Origin: an uncultured Erysipelotrichaceae bacterium
GTDB taxonomy: Bacteria > Bacillota_I > Bacilli_A > Erysipelotrichales > Coprobacillaceae
Assembly (NCBI GenBank): GCA_945981915.1
Contig: CAMFRJ010000012.1
Coordinates: forward strand, 1 to 13,596
DNA: 13,596 nt
Direction of reading: 5' to 3'
This document shows, piece by piece, positions 6,921 through 9,002 of the stretch (its first letter is position 1; each line of letters begins with the position of its first letter). The translations under genes were made by a program, and so were the position numbers. The notes below the pieces were generated by a model. It worked only from the letters and a program-made list of their open reading frames with translations. It searched no databases and was not told the origin of the DNA.

Positions 6921-7184
6921 AAAAAAAACCGTCTCGAAAGAAAAATCTTTCAAGGACGGATTGTTCCGCGGTGCCACCTTGATTCATGAAAAATCATGCA
7001 CTTGACTAGATGCTATCACATCTATGACTACTCACGTAAGCCTCACGTCAAAGAATACTTGGCAATTGCCTTTCACTTTGCCCTCAGTGGTCCATTTAAT
7101 AGGCTGCGTTCTGCTTGCTTCCACCATCCAAGCTCTCTGTAAGTGCACGATCTATTTTTATCTCCACATCAACGGTTTGTATAC
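6921..7184 (-). promoter_or_regulatory. T-box riboswitch (tRNA-Trp) in the trp operon leader
   Basis: A transcription-attenuating leader that senses uncharged tRNA-Trp. Stem I spans about 7145-7074 (base CACTT pairs AAGTG), with the AGAGAG and GGATGGTGGAAGC elements typical of its distal part. The specifier is UGG at 7094-7092, in the context AAA-UGG-ACCACUGAG. A stem III hairpin lies at about 7023-7008. The T-box core AAGGUGGCACCGCGG is at 6980-6966. Antiterminator: AAGG (6980-6977) pairs CCUU (6955-6952), GCGGA (6969-6965) pairs UCCGU (6960-6956), loop ACAA, leaving the 7-nt bulge UGGCACC whose UGGC would pair a GCCA tRNA end, as expected for tRNA-Trp with discriminator G. The competing terminator is 6959-6929, with an 8-T tail at 6928-6921. 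The parts seen are complete and mutually consistent. Confidence 0.96.
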
Positions 7185-7186
7185 AA
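7177..7186. promoter_or_regulatory. Palindromic operator-like site at the trp start
   Basis: Perfect 10-bp palindrome TTGTATACAA made of half-sites TTGTA and TACAA, placed on the predicted +1 of the trp promoter. The same 10-mer occurs at 7446-7455. The position fits a repressor site; GntR-type operators often have GTATAC-like centres, but the regulator is unknown and chance remains possible in AT-rich DNA. Confidence 0.4.
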
Positions 7187-7190
7187 TGCT

Positions 7191-7220
7191 ATTATATGTT
7201 CTTTTCAAAAATAATGTCAA
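7191..7220 (-). promoter_or_regulatory. trp operon promoter (sigma-A type)
   Basis: Perfect -35 TTGACA (7220-7215) and perfect -10 TATAAT (7196-7191) with an 18-bp spacer. The start should fall near 7184, matching the 5' edge of the T-box leader. A run of ten A (7245-7236 on the minus strand) upstream of the -35 may act as an UP element. The palindrome TTGTATACAA (7177-7186) lies on the predicted start. Confidence 0.9.
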
Positions 7221-7260
7221 TTATTTCATCAAATGTTTTTTTTTTAGTACAAAACACAGT

Positions 7261-7286
7261 AAAAAAAAAGACCTTGCGGTCTTTTT
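7261..7286 (-). terminator. Intrinsic terminator of the candidate small RNA
   Basis: A 9-bp stem, AAAAAGACC / GGTCTTTTT (7286-7278 with 7273-7265 on the minus strand), with a GCAA tetraloop of the stable GNRA kind and a run of nine T. The GCAA loop and the T run both favour minus-strand use, although the plus strand also has a short T run. Confidence 0.8.
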
Positions 7287-7296
7287 AACTTTTCCT

Positions 7297-7364
7297 ATGA
7301 AACAAATAAATGAAAGAATTAAAGTGTCAAAAAATATTTAAGGAAGGCCATTTATTTGTTTCAT
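7297..7364. repeat. Perfect 16-bp inverted repeat with 36-nt spacer
   Basis: Arms ATGAAACAAATAAATG (7297-7312) and its exact reverse complement (7349-7364). No matching flanking duplication is seen, which argues against a mobile-element remnant. Best read as the main stem of the candidate small RNA. Confidence 0.85.
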
Positions 7365-7379
7365 CTGTCTACGAAAATT

Positions 7380-7407
7380 ATTATATTTTTTTATTTTTCA
7401 TTTTCAA
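7380..7407 (-). promoter_or_regulatory. Promoter of the candidate small RNA
   Basis: TTGAAA (7407-7402), a 16-bp spacer and TATAAT (7385-7380) on the minus strand. The -35 lies within a 10-bp hairpin-forming sequence (TTTTCAACAT 7401-7410, ATGTTGAAAA 7414-7423). The predicted start is near 7373. Confidence 0.55.
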
Positions 7408-7429
7408 CATTTTATGTTGAAAAAAGTCA

Positions 7430-7457
7430 TTGTAAGTGTTTACAATTGTATACAATT
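7430..7457. promoter_or_regulatory. Cluster of overlapping palindromes, including a cre-like box
   Basis: Four half-sites in alternating orientation: TTGTA 7430-7434, TACAA 7441-7445, TTGTA 7446-7450 and TACAA 7451-7455. They give the 14-bp palindrome AATTGTATACAATT (7444-7457), the 10-bp palindrome TACAATTGTA (7441-7450) and the site TGTAAGTGTTTACA (7431-7444), which differs from the CcpA cre consensus TGWNANCGNTNNCA only at the central C. The cluster lies about 55-85 bp upstream of the predicted start of the candidate small RNA, a position where CcpA sites can activate. Binding proteins are inferred, not shown. Confidence 0.45.
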
Positions 7458-7515
7458 TATCAAAAACCGCTTTCTATCTCTTTTTTTAGGATATATAAAT
7501 AAAAAGTATGGTATT

Positions 7516-7542
7516 TATAAAAAAAGAGACTATTGTCTCTTT
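7516..7542 (-). terminator. Intrinsic terminator of malQ, overlapping its stop codon
   Basis: Perfect 8-bp stem (7542-7535 with 7530-7523, AAAGAGAC / GTCTCTTT), a 4-nt loop and a T run giving seven T in total. The TAG stop at 7532-7530 lies in the loop and the first stem base. Confidence 0.85.
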
Positions 7543-9002
7543 GTCTGTTTTAATAATTGTTGGATCATTGGCAGATGCTTTTGATAATCAGCTAACGTAT
7601 TGAGTTTATAAGACCAATTATGATTTCCTACTGTTCCTGGAAGGTTAATTCGCGCCTCTTTACCATAGCCTAAAAGATCTTGAACAGGTATGATGGAAAT
7701 CACACTGTCACAGCTTAATGTATAATGAAGAACCTGTTGAGGCACTGTTTCATCATCCATCTGTAATTTTTCCATGATATCTTGTAAACGTTTTTTATCT
7801 CCATAATCATCATACCATTCTACTAATGTTGCATTATCGTGAGTTCCGGTATAAACAACGCAATGTTCTGGCATCTGAAAATGATTTTTTTCTTCTGCTT
7901 CTCCAAAAGAGAATTCCATGACCCTCATTCCTAATAAATGATAGTGATCTCTTAATTCATGAACTTCTTCTCTCAATTCACCAAGATCTTCTACAATCAT
8001 TGTTAAATCAGGTAATTGTTCATAAACCGAATCAAAGAAATCATAAGCTGGTCCTTCAATCCATTGTCCATTGCGAGCTGTTTTATCTCCATAAGGAATA
8101 GACCAATATGTATCAAATGCTCTAAAATGGTCAATACGTAAGATATCAAATATTTCATTATTCCATTTTAATCTTTTGATCCAAAAATCATAATTTGTTT
8201 CTTTTAGATAATCCCAATTGTATAAAGGATGTCCCCATAATTGTCCATCTGCAGAAAAATAGTCTGGTGATGCTCCTGAGACAAAAAGAGGATAGTATTT
8301 GTTATCAAGTTGGAAACATTCTCTAAATTCATATACGTCAGCAGAATCATGACCGACATATAATGGAAGATCTCCCATGATGGAGATACCATAAAGATGT
8401 GCATGTATTTTTAATAAATTAAATTGTTTGATAAAGATAAATTGTAAAAACTTGATATATGCGATATCCTCTTCTAAACCTTCATTAGAACCTTGAATCT
8501 CCTGATCTTCATCATTCCAATCCACCCATGATAATCCTTCATTGGCTTCTTTTAAAGCCATATAACGGGCGTAACAATCTAACCAGAAAGCCCCTTTGAC
8601 AAATGTATGATATTCATCCAGCAATTCATGATCATCTTTTTGAAAGTTTTTGAAAGCTTCTCTTAAATATTTATTTTTGTACTTTCTTACTGCAACATAA
8701 TCCACTGTATTGGTTTCCTGTTGAAATGGGGGCACTTCTCCAATCAATCCCCATTTTGTTAACAGATCCAAAGAAATATAGATTTCATCGCCTGCAAAAG
8801 ATGAATAAGGTGTATAAGGTGAATTGCCTGCACTAGATGGATTCAATGGTAAGATCTGCCAAATTGAAAATCCAGCTGCTGCCGACATTTCAATAAAATC
8901 ATAAGCCTCTTGCCCCATATCACCGATTCCATGTTTTCCTGGAATACTAAAAAGTGGCAATAACACCCCCGCCTGTCTTTCATCTAAATTTTTTAATTCC
9001 AT
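7530..9002 (-). CDS. malQ: 4-alpha-glucanotransferase (amylomaltase, GH77)
   Basis: Cytoplasmic enzyme that moves alpha-1,4-glucan segments between maltodextrins, releasing glucose; used in maltose/maltodextrin or glycogen breakdown. 490 residues, the typical short bacterial GH77 form without an N-terminal extension. The three catalytic carboxylates sit almost exactly where the Thermus enzyme has them: nucleophile Asp291 in RIDHFR, acid/base Glu338 in IVEDLG, Asp389 in YTGTHDN. Other hallmarks: PYTPYSSFAGD (62-72), GDLPLYVGHDSADV and GASPDYFSADGQLWGHPLYNW. A GAGAGAGG site lies about 9 nt before ATG 9000-9002. It stands alone, with no glycogen phosphorylase, maltose transporter or amylase in the window, between its own terminator and that of the upstream peptidase gene. 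A clear promoter in the short upstream gap was not found. Confidence 0.96.
   Translation of the reverse strand: MELKNLDERQAGVLLPLFSIPGKHGIGDMGQEAYDFIEMSAAAGFSIWQILPLNPSSAGNSPYTPYSSFAGDEIYISLDLLTKWGLIGEVPPFQQETNTVDYVAVRKYKNKYLREAFKNFQKDDHELLDEYHTFVKGAFWLDCYARYMALKEANEGLSWVDWNDEDQEIQGSNEGLEEDIAYIKFLQFIFIKQFNLLKIHAHLYGISIMGDLPLYVGHDSADVYEFRECFQLDNKYYPLFVSGASPDYFSADGQLWGHPLYNWDYLKETNYDFWIKRLKWNNEIFDILRIDHFRAFDTYWSIPYGDKTARNGQWIEGPAYDFFDSVYEQLPDLTMIVEDLGELREEVHELRDHYHLLGMRVMEFSFGEAEEKNHFQMPEHCVVYTGTHDNATLVEWYDDYGDKKRLQDIMEKLQMDDETVPQQVLHYTLSCDSVISIIPVQDLLGYGKEARINLPGTVGNHNWSYKLNTLADYQKHLPMIQQLLKQTKRQ

Follow-up and report, generated by a model that had tools for sequence, protein, structure and literature searches.

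A candidate small RNA downstream of malQ in Faecalibacillus with a loop predicted to pair with the leader of a PTS EIIC mRNA

Genomic context and features of the locus

The window, that is, the whole stretch of 13,596 nucleotides that was analyzed, belongs to an assembly of the genus Faecalibacillus (Coprobacillaceae, Erysipelotrichales) with a size of 1.49 Mb and a completeness of 72.9%. A candidate small RNA (sRNA) is located on its minus strand between malQ and the T-box leader of the trp operon. The features of the locus are given below in the order of minus-strand reading.

7530..9002, minus strand: malQ, 4-alpha-glucanotransferase (GH77), the upstream neighbour (profile/domain match)
7504..7515, strand not assigned: box AATACCATACTT (minus-strand reading), which resembles a box in the promoter of the predicted target
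7402..7407, minus strand: -35 box TTGAAA (promoter scan)
7380..7385, minus strand: -10 box TATAAT, spacer of 16 (promoter scan)
7260..7373, minus strand: candidate small RNA of about 110 nt, its 5' end placed near 7373 from the -10 box
7349..7364, minus strand: 5' arm of the stem (exact self-match, fold and paired columns)
7324..7347, minus strand: 24-nt antisense segment of the loop, CCUUCCUUAAAUAUUUUUUGACAC (match to the EIIC leader)
7297..7312, minus strand: 3' arm of the stem (exact self-match, fold and paired columns)
7261..7286, minus strand: Rho-independent terminator with T run (scan; stem-loop 7286..7265)
6949..7181, minus strand: T-box leader of the trp operon, the downstream neighbour (Rfam match; own promoter 7220..7191)

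The promoter, the 16-bp stem and the Rho-independent terminator are real features of the window. An earlier note on this DNA had described a promoter TTGAAA-16-TATAAT and a terminator of the sRNA's own, and both were found by scanning, the former on the minus strand at 7407..7380 with 11 of 12 positions matching and the latter as the stem-loop 7286..7265 followed by T. The 1 kb covered by the scan contains five terminator-like sites versus 0.2 ± 0.5 in shuffled sequences; promoter-like sites numbered six versus 4.5 ± 2.0, a count that by itself is at the level of chance. The terminator of malQ was placed by the scan at 7542..7523, separate from that of the sRNA, as had been proposed. Exact self-matches returned the perfect inverted repeat of 16 bp (7349-7364 and 7297-7312) with its loop of 36 nt, also noted before. 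The region 7253-7373 folds with an energy of -27.8 kcal/mol versus -17.0 ± 2.9 kcal/mol for dinucleotide shuffles (z -3.7), and 0 of 200 shuffles were as low.

As for coding potential, a short frame starting in the stem reads ATG AAA CAA ATA AAT GGC CTT CCT TAA. Since this frame is not preceded by a ribosome site and its ATG is not kept in two related genomes (G001 and G005), a protein product is unlikely, which agrees with the earlier statement that no credible protein is encoded. A plus-strand frame of 105 codons (7024-7341), overlapping both T-box and sRNA, is in all likelihood spurious.

According to the analysis with Rfam 15, the T-box (6949-7181) alone reaches its gathering cut-off in the window, and the best sub-threshold sRNA match over 7200-7560 is STnc50 (21.4 of 55 bits). 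With no match to an Rfam family, the sRNA can still be called undescribed. The unit has the set of features used to recognize trans-acting base-pairing sRNAs, namely, its own promoter, a Rho-independent terminator, no ORF and a predicted structured RNA.

Conservation of the unit in Faecalibacillus

The sRNA unit was found downstream of malQ in all six Faecalibacillus genomes. In G004 (F. intestinalis), two copies of the unit are arranged in tandem, 263 bp apart (G004:C34:23038-23405, minus strand); the duplication covers the whole unit, including box, promoter, stem, antisense loop and terminator. In G003, it is not trp that follows the sRNA; by resemblance, we take the adjacent downstream gene to be a 6-phospho-beta-glucosidase-type glycoside hydrolase (L031 493-1974, minus strand). 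A covariance model built from the seven copies recovers these seven at E <= 7.4e-11, a match by construction, and its match in the window (7263-7373) is to a copy that is itself part of the model. The promoter with 16-nt spacing is present in 7/7 unit copies from six species.

The three most alike copies, those of the window, G005 and G001, have an identical 24-nt segment CCUUCCUUAAAUAUUUUUUGACAC and keep 13 of 13 aligned stem pairs (39/39 cells) in a hand alignment; the pairs were counted by hand because the MAFFT alignment A2 misaligns the stem arms on the 3' side. In four stem columns both partners have changed, and another column takes the forms A-U, G-U and G-C among the three copies. The covariance check in relatives suggested by the earlier note was, in these three copies, favourable to the sRNA, the stem being kept through compensating changes and the loop unchanged. 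The copies of G002, G003 and G004 have a different stem and a loop with one extra U. Folding relative to shuffled sequences is strong in G005 (z -6.6) and G001 (z -5.4) and weak in G004 (z -1.2) and G003 (z -1.9).

Two finer details of the earlier description did not hold across the genus. The GNRA loop of the terminator is not conserved, reading AATC in G004 and ATTT in G002 and G003. The pseudoknot between AGGAA after the stem and UUCCU is not conserved either and was dropped, AGGAA being absent from G005 and G001.

Predicted target of the loop

The loop core (21 nt, at most two mismatches) was searched against 43 genomes of the family, and in G001 and G005 one site each was found besides the sRNA. 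On the opposite strand, this site is a leader together with its ribosome site, in all GUGUCAAAAAAUAUUUAAGGGAGG, followed by AUG. The gene that it precedes is unlinked to the sRNA locus and encodes a lactose/cellobiose-family PTS EIIC (TIGR00410, 285.5 bits with a cut-off of 236; PF02378), whose sole solved relative by sequence is 3qnq. This long-match search, in line with the target prediction that had been recommended, points to the EIIC leader. Complementarity of this kind, directed at an unlinked mRNA's ribosome site and kept through evolution, is a second mark of trans-acting base-pairing sRNAs.

In G001 and G005, the predicted duplex of sRNA loop and EIIC leader comprises 24 bp, a single G-U among them, at -34.6 kcal/mol. 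The complementarity starts approximately 7 nt past the -10 box of the EIIC gene and extends through the Shine-Dalgarno (SD) sequence. Co-folding of the window sRNA with the G001 leader predicts that all 24 pairs form, with the sRNA stem partly opened, at an energy of -48.5 kcal/mol versus -29.4 kcal/mol for the two apart. The predicted openness of the loop segment in the free sRNA is 0.79, and the target site is partly open in the four mRNAs considered (0.56-0.70). The EIIC gene with its leader was not found in the window's own assembly (72.9% complete), so the target for the species of the window is deduced from G001 and G005, which have identical loops.

In G002, G003 and G004, the leader contains seven A's and the loop seven U's. 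The change of length is matched in 5/5 congeners, a loop with six U's accompanying a leader with six A's, and a loop with seven U's a leader with seven A's. The 7-base form of the pattern (at most three mismatches), searched in these three genomes, matched the EIIC leaders as well as the sRNAs, and G002 and G003 each gave a further match to a second sRNA. With the pattern reversed as a control, four matches were obtained in the six genomes. The third loop-like site in G002 and G003 was considered as a second target and rejected, as it is the second sRNA on the other strand. The sibling sRNAs of the genus, in each of which a separate stem and a terminator accompany an almost unchanged antisense loop, are as follows.

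G002:C58:6252-6345, plus strand: second sRNA (sibling, stem GTCATTC/GAATGAC)
G003:C3:25682-25775, minus strand: second sRNA (sibling, stem GTCATTC/GAATGAC)
G004:C50:54442-54538, minus strand: second sRNA (sibling, stem GTCATTC/GAATGAC, a relative of those in G002 and G003)

The earlier proposal that the loop blocks ribosome sites can be sharpened by these results: the loop contains a putative 24-nt antisense to one mRNA leader, beyond a general match to ribosome sites. The interpretation of the loop as a mere anti-SD motif was rejected, since long-match searches point to one leader. Searches of viral contigs gave 48 stretches with an exact 17-mer, which were set aside, a word this short being expected there by chance.

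Proposed mechanism

We estimate a probability of roughly 85% that the locus encodes a trans-acting sRNA of approximately 110 nt, the loop of which pairs with the 5' end and SD sequence of the EIIC mRNA and blocks its translation. In such a mechanism, the variable stem would display the 24-nt antisense loop, which would pair with the 5' end and SD sequence of the unlinked EIIC mRNA. The pairing would mask the ribosome site and block translation initiation of EIIC, and the long duplex could additionally attract double-strand cleavage. Transcription of the sRNA, its pairing in the cell and the repression of EIIC are what we infer from the sequence data.

The position of the duplex could also be read in the opposite sense. 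The complementarity beginning approximately 7 nt after the -10 box lies at the 5' end of the mRNA, where pairing might guard the EIIC message against 5'-end decay, and the sRNA would then be stabilizing or activating, with a positive or mixed effect. However, the SD sequence is covered in every pair drawn, and in lineage g18 the start codon is covered as well, which makes a stabilizing role quite unlikely.

Leaders and antisense candidates across the family

The leader before the EIIC start was read in 29 of the 43 family genomes, representing 15 of 20 genera, and has lineage-specific forms; in G063 it was identified by pattern match only. The leader pattern gave 48 matches versus nine for the reversed control. 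Antisense sRNA candidates were found in 18 of the 43 genomes (nine genera), with varying stems and locations; in genera other than Faecalibacillus, candidates having hairpins and terminators came from sRNA search patterns built family-wide and not per genome. Both partners are present in 14 genomes, and four genomes (G000, G012, G026 and G035) have an sRNA candidate with no leader found. For 15 of the 29 genomes with a leader, including all five of g17, these narrow patterns yielded no sRNA among the matches listed. The flanks of the EIIC genes in G036, G033, G009, G018, G034 and G065 likewise contained no convincing sRNA among the rows listed, and this flank scan yielded a candidate in G010.

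Two architectures of candidates were observed. The stem-loop form is found in G035, G027 (two) and G012 of lineage g8, in G026 (g6), in G011 (g7) and in G023 (two, g19); a similar stem-loop candidate of G010 (g6) gives -24.1 kcal/mol with its own leader. In the other form, a hairpin and the terminator flank the antisense (G015, g11; G020, two, g16; G030, two; and G022, two, g18), and the pairing in g18 extends over the start codon. In G061 (g4), the antisense CUCCCUAAAAUAUCUAUUGACAC fits the genome's own leader GUGUCAAUAGAUAUUUUAAGGGAGG.

According to a strict rule, a terminator is present within 95 nt of 21 of the 44 antisense candidates read versus 2.1% of 3000 random windows, a sample that also contains coding windows. 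This rule misses visible terminators in G005, G004, G061 and G011. A stem of at least 7 is uninformative alone, being present in 54% of random windows.

A number of pattern matches were not counted as sRNAs (L338, L340, L345-L350, L387-L390, L393-L396, L399 and L400); the simple terminator rule is satisfied by three of them (L346, L390 and L393). L331 of G023 is a good match that has no terminator and was omitted from the energy matrix, G023 being counted through L391 and L392.

In G036, a second gene, which presumably resembles an MFS transporter, has the same leader as EIIC (L294, G036:C1:1223224, plus strand); this MFS-like gene is a possible second target in g17. One may ask whether the EIIC leader acts mainly as a sponge for an sRNA that chiefly regulates other mRNAs, those whose ribosome sites resemble AAGGAAGG. 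The loop does start with CCUUCCUU, which fits many ribosome sites, and the shared leader of the MFS gene of G036 is in line with such a role. Against this, the full-length loop matches in the genus are the EIIC leaders, besides the sRNAs and one unrelated site with two mismatches in G003, and the probability of a sponge is in our estimate very low.

Co-variation of antisense segments and leaders

Duplex energies were calculated for every sRNA segment with every leader in the nine lineages having both partners, G010 being left out. Own-lineage pairs are the best in 7/9 lineages and second in g8 and g11, where the leader of another lineage binds slightly better. Arrangements as good or better number 6 of 362,880 with the observed one included, a count that is not a clean probability, since the candidates were found by leader likeness and the lineages share descent. 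Before the second sRNA of G020 was included, own pairs ranked first in 6/9 lineages, with 14 of 362,880 arrangements; for the six stem-loop lineages alone, the figure is 3/720. Shuffled segments reached the observed energy in 0/1000 cases for each of ten pairs. The unit, its conservation, the compensating stem changes, the complementarity and the co-variation with the target are all shown by the sequences themselves.

These data also bear on the supposition that there is no gene here and that the locus derives from an EIIC leader, as a mobile or inverted copy of it that has decayed beside malQ, with a chance promoter and terminator. An inverted duplication could yield an antisense segment, and the locations and stems do vary between genera. 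Decay is, however, at odds with the promoter spacing kept in 7/7 copies, the compensating stem changes that surround an unchanged loop, the co-variation with the target and the terminators at the antisense candidates, and we regard this origin as extremely improbable.

Promoter boxes and sugar-gene surroundings

The box AAGTACCATACTT was found 59-64 nt before the EIIC leader in 27/29 genomes as a raw count (either orientation; in some instances with one base of latitude). A similar box precedes the sRNA in 7/7 Faecalibacillus units, again as a raw count. A gene of a GntR-type regulator lies just upstream of EIIC in 3/3 genomes with ORFs listed (G001, G004 and G005), and GntR and UTRA domains were found in the regulator protein of G001. 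The box at 7504..7515 is possibly a putative site for such a regulator, which would act on the sRNA through the box common to the EIIC promoter.

In addition, words that look cre-like by eye (e.g., TGTAAACGCTTGTA in G005) occur in the sRNA units in the interval from the box to the -35 box; in the window they map to about 7415-7480 on the minus strand. The sRNAs of g6, g7, g8 and g19 (L332-L337, L391 and L392) have promoters of the type TTGT-16/17-TAAAAT or TAGAAT in common, and a AAATTATTCAAT-like word is located upstream of 7/8 of them. A similar word also precedes some EIIC paralogs of g8.

In G002, the second sRNA is located upstream of an EIIC paralog, at a distance of approximately 150 nt, and in G004 it sits beside an EIIC remnant. 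The sRNAs of g8 precede, by about 200-250 nt, an EIIC paralog that has a different leader, and in G061 and G010 the sRNA is downstream of an EIIC paralog, at approximately 0.2 kb and 1 kb, respectively. These surroundings in G002, G004, g8, G061 and G010 suggest that the sRNA may be governed by another sugar route.

A broader reading, which we put forward tentatively and hold to be somewhat less probable than an even chance, is that of a fast-moving switch throughout Coprobacillaceae. The sRNAs, alike in little beyond an antisense segment that follows the target, would be made together with other sugar genes next to them, either malQ or a second EIIC paralog, and would shut off the EIIC permease, the stem, place and architecture being repeatedly replaced while the antisense co-evolves with the leader. 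If so, activating one sugar route would shut off the EIIC permease.

Significance and comparison with known small RNAs

If the translation-blocking sRNA is confirmed, it would represent a new family of sRNAs whose target is specific and testable, in gut bacteria for which the open-access literature searched offered little on regulatory RNA. It would also be a case of an sRNA whose antisense segment follows the changes of its target from genus to genus as the remainder of the RNA is remodelled, a co-evolution that could be tested through exchange of loops and leaders. Moreover, it would explain the otherwise odd and highly conserved leader of EIIC. Judging by titles and abstract openings, none of the open-access publications listed names this RNA.

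SgrS of enterobacteria represses the mRNA of the PTS sugar permease ptsG by pairing at its ribosome site. The window sRNA is similar to SgrS in repression of a PTS permease through pairing at the ribosome site, here predicted from the sequence. It differs in coming from another phylum, in having a 24-nt gene-specific antisense in its loop and in giving no sign of a coded peptide, and with no Rfam match it is not assigned to SgrS.

RsaI of Staphylococcus aureus is a carbon-linked sRNA that represses the glucose-uptake mRNA glcU_2 by pairing with the SD sequence (PMC9266662). The likeness lies in a carbon-linked sRNA of a Gram-positive bacterium that would pair with the SD of a sugar-uptake mRNA. 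RsaI has several targets (PMC9266662). The window sRNA has no Rfam match.

The LhrC family of Listeria monocytogenes consists of sibling sRNAs with a CU-rich loop that pairs with SD regions of mRNAs (PMC5880928). Sibling sRNAs and predicted loop pairing at the SD region are common to both, but LhrC uses CU-rich stretches on several mRNAs (PMC5880928), whereas the window sRNA has one 24-nt segment and one co-changing leader. The absence of an Rfam match places the window sRNA outside the LhrC family too. What differs from these known sRNAs is a long, gene-specific predicted antisense that moves with its putative target while stem, place and architecture change.
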